NCBI GenBank assembly: GCA_026984835.1 | Contig: JALSRI010000205.1 | Coordinates: 1-36,630, forward strand | DNA length: 36,630 bases | Reading direction: 5' to 3' | Source of the DNA: Thiohalobacter sp. | GTDB taxonomy: Bacteria; Pseudomonadota; Gammaproteobacteria; DSM-19610 | Part shown: positions 6,876 through 15,232 of the stretch, in pieces | Layout of the letters: the number at the start of each line of letters is the position of its first letter | How positions within the stretch are numbered: position 1 is the first letter of the stretch | Translations under genes and position numbers: made by a program | Notes under the pieces: model-generated | Told to the model about the DNA's origin: nothing | The model's database searches: none | What the model saw: only the letters and a program-made list of their open reading frames with translations

Positions 6876-7940
6876 ATGGCGGCCGCCGATACCGCCACGA
6901 CCCTGTGCGACCAGTTCGGCCTCGACGCCGCCTGGCGCGCGGCGCAGCTGGCGCTGGTCGACCTCGCGGCGGCGGATCACCCGCGTGTCGAGCTGTTGCA
7001 CGAACGCGTCCTCGGCGGCGACAGCGCCGTTTCCATCATCGACGACTTCTACGTGCACCTGCTCAAGAACGGGCAGGCCGCGCGCCTGCTGGCGAGCTTC
7101 GACATGGACAGGCTCAAAAAGTTGCAGGTCGGCCACCTGCGGACCCTGGGGCGTGACTTCGACAGCGCCGCCTATTTCGAGGCGCGCCTGCGGGTCGGCA
7201 TCGCCCACGCGCGGGTCGGCGTGCCACTGGGCCTGTACCTGGCCGCGTTCGGCTACCTGCAGGTGCTGGTGCTGTACGAGATCGAGGCCGCCGGCCTGGC
7301 GGGCGACGAGCGCCAGGCGCTGGTGGAGCTGGTGGTCAAGCTCAATACCCTGGACGTCACCCTGGCGGCCGAGGTCTATCACCGCACCCGGGTGCAGGAC
7401 CTGCAGCGCTCGGTGCGCCAGCTCGAACACGAGCGCAGGCAGTTGCGCGACCAGTTGCAGCAGGATGCCCTGACCGGGGTGTCCAGCCGGGTCGGCCTGC
7501 TGGAGGAGATCGGCCGGGCGCTGGACGCGGCGCTGCGCACCGGCCAGCCGCTGTGCCTGATCATGGCCGACCTGGACCATTTCAAGCAGGTCAACGACAC
7601 CCACGGCCACGCGGTGGGCGATGCGGTGCTGCGCGAGGTGGCGGGACGCATCAAGGCGGCGCTGCGCGAGTTCGACCTGGTGGGCCGCTACGGCGGCGAG
7701 GAGTTCGTCATCCTGCTGGAGAACACCTCGCTGCACACCGCCCGCCAGGTGGCCGAGCGCGTGCGGCGCCGCATCGCCGACCAGCCGGTCAAGGCGGGCG
7801 GGCACCTGATCGACATCACCCTCAGCCAGGGTCTGGCGCTGGCCAGTCCCGGGGACGATCCGGACAGCCTGCTGGCGCGCGCCGACCAGGCCATGTACCG
7901 GGCCAAGCAGGCCGGTCGCAACTGCATCGCCGAGGCCTGA
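6876..7940 (+). CDS. Globin-coupled diguanylate cyclase (DosC-like)
   Basis: A 354-aa oxygen-sensor cyclase that should make c-di-GMP. Residues about 20-170 form a globin-coupled sensor domain. His111 in GIAHARVG fits the proximal haem ligand, and Tyr59 in DDFYVHLL matches the distal tyrosine of E. coli DosC (YddV). A short helical linker (QDLQRSVRQLEHERRQLRDQ) leads to a GGDEF domain with an intact active site, GGEEF at 273-277. An RxxD inhibitory site (REFD) lies five residues before it, so product inhibition is expected. The gene lacks the middle domain seen in some DosC proteins. Its stop is 3 bases before the GTG of the HyuA-like gene, implying one transcript. It starts about 100 bases from the divergent ABC operon. 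Confidence 0.88.
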   Translation: MAAADTATTLCDQFGLDAAWRAAQLALVDLAAADHPRVELLHERVLGGDSAVSIIDDFYVHLLKNGQAARLLASFDMDRLKKLQVGHLRTLGRDFDSAAYFEARLRVGIAHARVGVPLGLYLAAFGYLQVLVLYEIEAAGLAGDERQALVELVVKLNTLDVTLAAEVYHRTRVQDLQRSVRQLEHERRQLRDQLQQDALTGVSSRVGLLEEIGRALDAALRTGQPLCLIMADLDHFKQVNDTHGHAVGDAVLREVAGRIKAALREFDLVGRYGGEEFVILLENTSLHTARQVAERVRRRIADQPVKAGGHLIDITLSQGLALASPGDDPDSLLARADQAMYRAKQAGRNCIAEA

Positions 7941-12255: not shown

Positions 12256-13755
12256 TCAGCCGTATGACAGCCGGATGCCGACCGCCTTGAGGTATTTCCT
12301 CTCCTGGTCCAGGTCCGCCCGCGTCAGGGCGTGATCGTCCAGCCAGCCGGGCGGGAAGGCGAGGGTGATGCGCTCGTTCTTGCAGCGTACGCGCAGGCCG
12401 CCCAGCTCGTGGGCCGCGCGGTCGCGGTGCAGCAGTACCGCCAGCCGCAGCAGGGTGGCCAGCCGCAGGGTGGTCTGGTGCATGGATTCCGGCAGCAGGT
12501 CCAGCATCGCGCTCTTGAGCTTGCGCCGGTGGGTGCGCACCAGGGTGGCCAACAGGCGCTGGTCGCGCAGCGAGAAGCCGGGCAGGTCGGAGTGTTCGAT
12601 CAGGTAGGCGCCGTGCCGGTGGTACTGGTTGTGGGCGATGACCAGGCCGGTCTCGTGACTGAGCGCCGCCCAGCGCAGCCACTGGCCGGCGTCCCCGCGG
12701 CGCAGCTTCCAGTCGTCCGCCACCTGCTCCAGCAGCAGCATGGCGGTCGACTCGATGCGCCGCGACTGCGCCTCGTCGCACTGGTAGCGGCGGGCCAGCG
12801 AGCGGACGGTCTCCTCGCGGATGTCCTCGTGGTGGATGCGCCCGAGCAGGTCGTAGAGCAGCCCTTCGCGCAGCGCGCCGCTGGAATGCAGCATGCGCTT
12901 GATCCGCAGCGCCTGGAACACGGCGCTGAGGATGGCGACGCCGCCCGGCAGCACCGGCCGGCGGTCGTTGCCCAGGCCTTCGAAGGCGATGCGGTCGGTG
13001 TGGCCCGCCTCGACCAGGCTGGCGCGCAGGCGCTTGAGGGCGTCGGCGGTGATGCCGTTGTCGCTCCAGCCGGTCTCCAGCACGATGTCGCGCACCGCGC
13101 GGATGGTGCCGGAGGAACCGGTGGCCTGGCTCCAGCCGGCCTCGCGGTAGGCGCGTTGCACGGGCTGCAGTTCCAGCCGCGCGGCCAGTATCGCCTCGCG
13201 CATGGCCGCCTTGGTGACGCTGCCGTCGGCGAAGAAGCGCCGGCTCATGCTGACGCAGCCCATGTACAGGCTCTCCAGCATCAGCGGCCGGTAGCCTTCG
13301 CCGATGATGAGTTCGGTGCTGCCGCCGCCGATGTCGACCACCAGCCGGCGGCCGCCGGGGTCGGGCAGGCTGTGGGCCACGCCCAGGTGGATGAGGCGCG
13401 CCTCCTCGATACCGGAGATGATCTCGATGGGGTGGCCCAGCGCCGCCTGGGCCTCGCGCAGGAAACCGCCGCCGGCCTGGGCCTTGCGCAGGGTGTTGGT
13501 GCCGACGGCGCGTACGTTGTGCGGCTGCAGGTCGCGGATGCGCTGCCCGAAGCGCGCCAGGCAGTCGACGGCGCGCCGCGCCACGGCGGGATCCAGGCTG
13601 TGGTCCTCGCGCAGTCCGGCCGCCAGCCGCACCGGTTCGCGCAGCCGGTCCAGAATGCGCAACTGGCCGCCCTGTTCACGGGCCACGATCATGTGGAAGC
13701 TGTTGGAGCCGAGGTCGACGGCGGCCAGGGTGTCGGCGAGTGGCGTTTCGGTCAC
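12256..13755 (-). CDS. ppx: Exopolyphosphatase (Ppx/GppA family)
   Basis: A 499-aa phosphatase that releases phosphate from the ends of polyphosphate and may also hydrolyse pppGpp. It shows the actin-like ATPase-fold motifs of the family: AAVDLGSNSFHMIVA near residues 11-25 with the catalytic region EARLIHLGVAHS, and VVDIGGGSTELIIGEG. The C-terminal half carries an HD-like helical domain (SHETGLVIAHNQYHRHGAYLIEHSD). The start is GTG at 13755 (MTETPLADTLAAVDLG). An extended -10 sits 36 bases upstream. It converges on ppk, the usual arrangement in relatives of Pseudomonas, and together they set polyphosphate level. Confidence 0.95.
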   Translation of the reverse strand: MTETPLADTLAAVDLGSNSFHMIVAREQGGQLRILDRLREPVRLAAGLREDHSLDPAVARRAVDCLARFGQRIRDLQPHNVRAVGTNTLRKAQAGGGFLREAQAALGHPIEIISGIEEARLIHLGVAHSLPDPGGRRLVVDIGGGSTELIIGEGYRPLMLESLYMGCVSMSRRFFADGSVTKAAMREAILAARLELQPVQRAYREAGWSQATGSSGTIRAVRDIVLETGWSDNGITADALKRLRASLVEAGHTDRIAFEGLGNDRRPVLPGGVAILSAVFQALRIKRMLHSSGALREGLLYDLLGRIHHEDIREETVRSLARRYQCDEAQSRRIESTAMLLLEQVADDWKLRRGDAGQWLRWAALSHETGLVIAHNQYHRHGAYLIEHSDLPGFSLRDQRLLATLVRTHRRKLKSAMLDLLPESMHQTTLRLATLLRLAVLLHRDRAAHELGGLRVRCKNERITLAFPPGWLDDHALTRADLDQERKYLKAVGIRLSYG

Positions 13756-13828: not shown

Positions 13829-13860
13829 AAAAAACCCCGCCCGGATTATCCAGGGCGGGG
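13829..13860 (-). terminator. Intrinsic terminator of the putative small RNA
   Basis: On the minus strand CCCCGCCC (13860-13853), a ten-base loop and GGGCGGGG (13842-13835) form an eight-pair stem followed by six T. It would end leftward transcription from the FNR-box promoter, and from the EAL-HDOD gene. Confidence 0.9.
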
Positions 13861-13955
13861 CAAGGACGGGAAGGGAAGACGGAATGGTGGGGGTACCCGG
13901 AGCAGGGGGCGCTGCTACCCGCCGGTCCTGCTCATCCCCATCACTAGTCCAACCG
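13829..13955 (-). ncRNA. Putative FNR/ANR-activated small RNA (about 127 nt)
   Basis: An unannotated transcript is predicted from about 13955 leftward to the U-run at 13834-13829. Three signals line up. A consensus FNR box (13990-14003) is centred exactly 41.5 bases before the predicted start. A TAACCT hexamer sits at the -12 to -7 position, and a strong intrinsic terminator ends the unit. No reading frame with a ribosome-binding site was found. By eye the RNA folds into a 5' hairpin (GGGG-AU-GAGCAGG pairing with CCTGCTC and CCCC). A purine-poor single-stranded stretch around TTCCGTCTTCCCTTCCCG follows, then the terminator stem. The C/U-rich stretch could pair with Shine-Dalgarno sequences. 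This resembles the plan of FnrS and PhrS, anaerobically induced sRNAs, though no sequence similarity is claimed. Confidence 0.62.
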
Positions 13956-13961
13956 CGGATC

Positions 13962-14003
13962 AGGTTACCCGTGCGGCCGGGGTCATTCCTTGATTTAAAT
14001 CAA
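13962..14003 (-). promoter_or_regulatory. FNR/ANR-type class II promoter
   Basis: TTGATTTAAATCAA at 13990-14003 is a perfect match to the FNR/ANR consensus TTGAT-N4-ATCAA. On the minus strand TAACCT (13967-13962) begins 30 bases after the centre of the box, which is exactly the class II spacing (box at -41.5, hexamer at -12). In the rightward direction the same position is GTTCGC, not a -10. The box lies 8 bases beyond the end of the EAL-HDOD gene. Confidence 0.72.
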
Positions 14004-14011
14004 ACAATGCG

Positions 14012-15232
14012 TCATCCGTGCAGGAGTTCGCGCTGAATCTGCCCGCTCCAGGCCAGCGCTTCCAGGTAGCAGCTCCGGATATCCTTCATAGTCAGCGTGT
14101 TACAGCTTATTTTCTCCCACTCGCCCCGCTCGTAGGCGAGCACGCAGTCGAGGATGCGGCCGTGGATGCCGCTGTGCTCCAGCAGCGCGGCAGCGATGTG
14201 GTCGGCCAGTGGGAGCTGGGTGAGGATCTCCTCCATGCTGTTGTCCATCAGCGCGTCGAGGATGGAGAACAGGCCGACGGTGAAGAAGGATTCCGGCTGC
14301 GGCTGGTCCAGGCGCATGGCCAGGAGCTCCGCCATGCGGCCCCGCACCAGGGCGGTGGTGACGAGTTCGACGGGCTTGTCGTCGAGCTGGGACATGGCCA
14401 GCAGCATGGCCATGTGGCGCACCGTCTGCAGGCCGACATAGACCACCGCTTCGCGGACGGACTCGATCCTGCGCGGCAGGGCGAAGGCTGCCGAATTGAC
14501 GTACTTGAGGATACGGTAGCTGAAGCCGACGTCGCGGCTGATGAGTTCTTCCACCTCGCGCGGGCCGAGTGCCGGGTCCTGCAGGCGCGCCAGCAGCCGC
14601 AGCACGGTGACGCGGTTGTTGGGCAGGCGCTGGCCGCGAATGATCTTGGGCTGGGAGAAGTAGTAGCCCTGGAAGTAGTCGAAGCCCAGTTCCACGCACT
14701 GGTCGAAAGCCTGGCGGGTCTCGACCTTCTCCGCCAGCAGCCGGACCGGGTGGCGGCGCAGTTGCTCGACGTGCGCGCGTATCCCGCCGGCATCCAGCGC
14801 CATGACGTCGATCTTGATGATGTCGGCCAGTTCGACCAGCGGCTGCAGGGCTTCGTTGTAGATGAAGTCATCCAGGGCAATGCGATAGCCCTGCGCGGCC
14901 AGCTTGCGCACGCCGGCGATCACCTCGCTGTCGGGCTCGATGTCCTCCAGCACTTCCAGCACCACGCGGTCCTTTGGCAGGGAGACGGCATAACGGTCGG
15001 TGACGAAGGCGCGCGTGAGGTTGATGAAGGCCAGCCGGTCCCCGACGATGTTGTTGAGGCCGATCTCCATGAAGGTGTTGACGATGACCTGGGAGGTCGC
15101 CTCGTCACCGTCCACGACCTCGGCGATGTTGTGCCTGCCACTGCGGAACAGCAACTCGTAGGCGTAGACGTCGAGCTGCCGGTCGTAGATGGGCTGGCGC
15201 CCGATGTAGATGTCGATATCCCTGTCGTTCAT
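14012..15232 (-). CDS. EAL-HDOD signalling protein, EAL domain degenerate
   Basis: A 406-aa protein of the YuxH/CdgJ type, which combines an N-terminal EAL-like domain (about 1-195) with a C-terminal HDOD domain (about 200-400). The signature position reads ELL at residues 26-28 instead of EAL. Several metal ligands of active phosphodiesterases are missing (ALDDF is retained, but the surrounding catalytic set is not), so it should not hydrolyse c-di-GMP. HDOD features include the SYRILKYVNSAAFALPRRI stretch. Related proteins affect motility and regulatory networks by protein contact. It is divergent from the desaturase gene (164-base gap). Its 3' end abuts the FNR-type promoter, and the next terminator downstream is that of the small RNA. 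No good Shine-Dalgarno sequence was seen before the ATG. Confidence 0.88.
   Translation of the reverse strand: MNDRDIDIYIGRQPIYDRQLDVYAYELLFRSGRHNIAEVVDGDEATSQVIVNTFMEIGLNNIVGDRLAFINLTRAFVTDRYAVSLPKDRVVLEVLEDIEPDSEVIAGVRKLAAQGYRIALDDFIYNEALQPLVELADIIKIDVMALDAGGIRAHVEQLRRHPVRLLAEKVETRQAFDQCVELGFDYFQGYYFSQPKIIRGQRLPNNRVTVLRLLARLQDPALGPREVEELISRDVGFSYRILKYVNSAAFALPRRIESVREAVVYVGLQTVRHMAMLLAMSQLDDKPVELVTTALVRGRMAELLAMRLDQPQPESFFTVGLFSILDALMDNSMEEILTQLPLADHIAAALLEHSGIHGRILDCVLAYERGEWEKISCNTLTMKDIRSCYLEALAWSGQIQRELLHG

Follow-up and report, generated by a model that had tools for sequence, protein, structure and literature searches.

A gap on the minus strand between an EAL-HDOD gene and ppx in a Thiohalobacter sp. 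contig (JALSRI010000205.1) very probably contains a real gene for a small non-coding RNA under FNR control, which would probably be switched on at oxygen depletion. In the window, i.e., the whole 36,630-nucleotide stretch of DNA analysed here, a FNR box, a promoter hexamer and an intrinsic terminator enclose a predicted RNA of 127 nt (13829–13955, minus strand). Read along the minus strand, positions 13829–14003 present in order TTGATTTAAATCAA, 22 nt, TAACCT, 7 nt, GGTTGG and lastly a GC-rich hairpin with six T. The EAL-HDOD gene upstream (14012–15232, minus strand; Pfam EAL and HDOD) and ppx downstream (12256–13755, minus strand; Pfam Ppx-GppA) form the context and lie outside the RNA. A covariance model matches the RNA in 13 of 20 same-family genomes, with 19 of 33 base pairs changed on both sides, and a sequence search of its own genome returns one copy. 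An earlier sequence-only reading had described a box, a hexamer and a terminator around about 127 nt in this gap, and all three signals were found where it had placed them. Its interpretation as a FNR-controlled small RNA holds as far as comparison of DNA can carry it, since promoter, RNA and terminator recur with covarying stems in these 13 genomes.

The promoter has a fixed and recognizable layout. The FNR box TTGATTTAAATCAA (13990–14003, minus strand) matches the consensus perfectly, as had been noticed from the sequence alone, and it proved to be the sole FNR-type site in the window with at most one mismatch, where 0.14 would be expected by chance. Its centre lies 41.5 bp upstream of the predicted start at 13955, which is the class II position of FNR promoters, and the -10 hexamer TAACCT occupies positions 13962–13967 of the same strand. 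The class II spacing claimed for this hexamer was constant throughout the homologues: all 13 members have TTGA-N6-TCAA in register, exactly 22 nt, TAnnnT, a further 7 nt (8 in G018) and GGTTGG. FNR-activated small RNAs are expected to have their box at class II distance from the start, and every homologue does so relative to its predicted start. FNR itself is encoded in 18 of the 20 same-family genomes, including the window's own, with matches above the curated cut-off. From this promoter we infer activation by FNR at low oxygen.

The predicted RNA, all parts of which lie on the minus strand, begins with a nearly invariant 5' block CGGUUGGACUAGUGA (13941–13955), in which GG and GGAC should form base pairs, by prediction, with GUCUUCCC (13873–13880). 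The closing helix formed in this way is mostly invariant, with 100% of its pairs kept in all members and one double change in G018. The central hairpin (13889–13940) varies in sequence and is conserved in shape; each of the 14 pairs in its main helix shows double changes. Eleven of the 13 members retain the loop AACUGCUC; G018 and the window copy lack it, and the latter is therefore regarded as a divergent member. After GUCUUCCC comes UUCCCGUCCUU (13862–13872), most positions of which are invariant in the 13 members and which has a mean predicted unpaired probability of about 0.8–0.97, making it the likely seed for mRNA pairing. The C/U-rich open stretch of the sequence-only reading thus stands in part: UUCCCGUCCUU is predicted to be unpaired, whereas GUCUUCCC, with which the run begins, is predicted to be paired to the 5' end. 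The strong intrinsic terminator that had been noted, a GC-rich hairpin followed by six T, was confirmed by a terminator scan at 13861–13829, with one site in the stretch versus 0.2 in shuffles. Every homologue has a U-tailed terminator hairpin, the sequence of which in the relatives differs from that of the window.

Folded alone, the predicted RNA is only mildly unusual (z = -2.0). In the 13-member alignment, whose fitting to the covariance model somewhat favours the structure, standard pairs make up 93.4% of pair cells, and the covariation score is 0.439 compared with 0.195 in shuffles; none of 500 shuffles reached any of five structure measures, including the 19 doubly changed pairs out of 33. 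When the partners were slid by 1–3 columns, pairing fell to 43–61%. A plain, unfitted alignment of nine sequences (RNAalifold) gave 13 doubly changed pairs out of 33. What the homologues share is a self-contained predicted non-coding RNA, conserved in structure and ending in a terminator of its own, as is expected of FNR-activated small RNAs. In 13 genomes the same six elements are found in register (box, hexamer, 5' block, hairpin, C/U stretch and terminator), which is more than chance would produce.

Twenty same-family genomes (Thiohalobacter/Thiogranum, Gammaproteobacteria) made up the comparison set. A DNA search recovered the region in the own genome and in eight others (G004–G009, G013 and G019); the match in G017 was rejected as an unrelated stretch of 26 nt. 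The covariance model built from these nine sequences added four members, G003, G011, G012 and G018 (E values from 5e-28 to 3.5e-14), bringing the total to 13, each with one copy of the RNA. Alignment across these relatives bears out the conservation of box, hexamer and terminator together with covarying stems. A pattern scan of named genome contigs places carriers in Thiohalobacter, Thiogranum and other Gammaproteobacteria. The same scan also matched records of Bacteroidales, Oscillospiraceae and Blastocatellia; a few chance matches were estimated for the pattern. Under strict filters, which can miss distant members, a search of 369 sampled genomes of the class turned up no additional credible member. 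One candidate outside the family, in G181 (L026, 133–180), scored 35 bits and was rejected: its terminator is preceded by GUCCUU only and it has no 5' block, and the match may reflect chance or terminator likeness.

The EAL-HDOD gene precedes the RNA wherever the locus extends that far, except in G004, where no match to the gene is seen, and the gene has diverged in G018. On the 3' side, ppx follows in most carriers, and G003, G006 and G013 keep the RNA with hyuA directly downstream and ppx elsewhere. A protoglobin-GGDEF gene, the product of which is likely a haem-based oxygen sensor that makes c-di-GMP, lies at 6876–7940 of the window (plus strand), beside hyuA, ppk and ppx, and is found near the RNA in many relatives.

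Some relatives lack the RNA although the flanking genes are retained, and these are explained by loss. In G014 and G015 the EAL-HDOD gene adjoins ppx, and the short gap before ppx contains no FNR box; in G016 the EAL-HDOD gene adjoins a ppx paralogue, again without the RNA. Absence in these three genomes is read as loss because they form a well-supported clade beside the carrier G008. In G017 (L052), a FNR box just upstream of ppx is followed directly by a terminator-like hairpin without the RNA body, apparently the result of a natural deletion that spared the box and a remnant of the terminator. The EAL-HDOD gene is also present in G002, which lacks the RNA, and G001 and G010 are incomplete genomes in which absence says little. 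The RNA has been lost in four relatives that keep FNR and is therefore dispensable; loss of FNR was ruled out as the cause, given that the genomes which lost the RNA encode it.

An alternative reading has no independent RNA at all and assigns box and terminator to the flanking genes, either as a ppx leader or attenuator or as the 3' terminus of the EAL-HDOD mRNA. The elements do sit between two genes of the same strand, where they might stem from a 3' UTR or from read-through. However, between the box and ppx stands a strong terminator, three genomes (G003, G006 and G013) keep all the elements without ppx downstream, and in all members the fixed-spacing promoter intervenes between the EAL-HDOD gene and the RNA, so that this reading is very unlikely. 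It can be discounted almost completely that the stretch encodes a small protein. Short frames arise by chance in single members, but their start and length vary from one member to another, and a 19-aa TTG frame shared by most of them is absent from the window copy. The homologues have no conserved reading frame, which bears out the lack of protein-coding signal noted earlier.

If the product is an RNA activated by FNR, it might still act on a protein instead of on mRNAs. The sequence-only reading had offered binding to CsrA/RsmA as an alternative, pointing to four GGA trinucleotides in the window copy. Sponges of this type would be expected to show GGA conserved at several places, each in a loop or a single-stranded region. 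Here the positions of the four are not conserved, the one GGA common to 12 of the 13 members is buried in a predicted helix, and G018 has a single GGA elsewhere; the alternative is not supported, and a CsrA/RsmA-type sponge is highly improbable. Somewhat less remote, and still unlikely, is that the functional parts are the conserved 5' block and the loop AACUGCUC and not the C/U stretch, for example by binding a protein or through short imperfect seeds. The 5' block is conserved as much as the C/U stretch, and the loop is open wherever it is kept. Against this, the 5' block is mostly paired and the window copy does without the loop. In addition, the genomes contain hardly any perfect 11-nt complement to the 5' block: outside the RNA gene itself there is one site, in G015, which argues against long perfect pairing as the block's mode of action.

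The account preferred here, which we consider likely, is that the gap encodes a small RNA of the Hfq type that is activated by FNR at a class II promoter of its own and acts in trans. At low oxygen, FNR would bind at 13990–14003 and recruit polymerase, and transcription would begin near 13955 and end at the terminator (13829). The transcript would fold into the long covarying hairpin and the short closing helix between its 5' end and GUCUUCCC, followed by the open UUCCCGUCCUU and the U-tailed terminator. It would then work with Hfq, the open stretch pairing with mRNA leaders or ribosome-binding regions, and its targets would be mRNAs for products that are unwanted without oxygen. Blocking translation would be the simplest mode because the complement of UUCCCGUCCUU, AAGGACGGGAA, is similar to a ribosome-binding site. 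The idea that UUCCCGUCCUU mediates pairing in trans is reasonably well favoured because this segment is conserved and accessible, the terminator is U-tailed and a Hfq gene is present in G003. A U-tailed terminator and an open, conserved putative seed are the marks of Hfq-dependent trans-acting small RNAs, and the RNA described here has both.

Prediction of targets from the C/U-rich stretch, as proposed in the sequence-only reading, yielded no signal or a weak one in every test. A search covering 86% of the G003 genome found no excess of duplex energies over shuffled segments and no enrichment of seed words at ribosome sites. Across the 20 genomes, AGGACGGGA occurs before ATG at 55 sites, three of which are the RNA gene itself, versus 52 for the reversed control. 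The best recurrent candidate, a TlpA-like gene whose start is preceded by AGGACGGG in G003, G004 and G009, was rejected: the site is missing from other carriers and present in G016, which has no copy of the RNA. A YeeE-like gene (named by eye) for a 143-aa membrane protein has AGGACGGGAAAAATG, a complement of the RNA's open stretch, at its start in G003, G011 and G013 (L260, L261 and L262); a close orthologue is missing in most carriers.

Genes of flagellar or chemotaxis appearance (G003:C1, 2.095–2.162 Mb, L196–L200) were overrepresented in the lists of seed matches, an excess noticed after the fact. It is strong only with the 5'-end form of G003 (0 of 60 shuffles, top 22) and is absent with the family-consensus 5' end; it is thus a weak lead and not a result. 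A broader proposal, which draws on the EAL-HDOD and protoglobin-GGDEF genes found around the RNA in relatives, is that the RNA links oxygen to c-di-GMP and motility by repressing flagellar and chemotaxis mRNAs at low oxygen. We hold this to be quite doubtful.

Among the closest known systems is FnrS, a FNR-dependent small RNA of E. coli and relatives that is described as repressing functions not needed without oxygen (PMC5703892). Both are short intergenic RNAs with a C/U-rich stretch (UUGUCUUACUUCC in FnrS) and a U-tailed terminator, and both have a FNR-type box at the same distance, measured for FnrS as 42.5 to the first base of the model. The two differ in that there is no sequence or structure match either way: six homologous loci searched with the FnrS model (RF01796) yielded nothing up to E = 10, and the model built here (R1) does not find FnrS. 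Furthermore, FnrS is flanked by zntB and ynaL whereas the new RNA has the EAL-HDOD gene on one side and ppx or hyuA on the other, and a long covarying central hairpin sets the new RNA apart. The Rfam comparison suggested earlier was carried out at both gathering and relaxed thresholds and returned no credible family match to the new RNA; E. coli FnrS, with a query sequence confirmed by its Rfam match, was found at 134.8 bits as the positive control. The new RNA therefore probably resembles FnrS in the way it works, without belonging to the FnrS family.

Expression of PhrS of Pseudomonas aeruginosa is described as depending on the FNR homologue ANR (PMC5703892), and in this respect PhrS, compared by description only, resembles what is predicted for the new RNA; on the side of sequence and structure the comparison went through Rfam, no family of which matched the new RNA. 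PaiI of the same species is an anaerobically induced, NarL-dependent small RNA (PMC5703892), alike in anaerobic induction, which is predicted for the new RNA, and different in relying on NarL rather than on a FNR box. Sponges of the CsrB and RsmY/Z type share GGA trinucleotides with the window copy; the new RNA departs from them in that its GGA motifs are not conserved and the one common to most members lies in a predicted helix. The RNA represents a new family of a known functional kind.

A search of an open-access library found no small-RNA work on Thiohalobacter or Thiogranum. With the present analysis, these sulfur-oxidising bacteria gain a probable FNR-controlled small RNA that comes with a ready covariance model and with genomes in which the RNA appears to have been deleted naturally. 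Taken together with FnrS and PhrS, the finding suggests that separate gammaproteobacterial lineages may each have acquired a FNR-controlled small RNA of their own.
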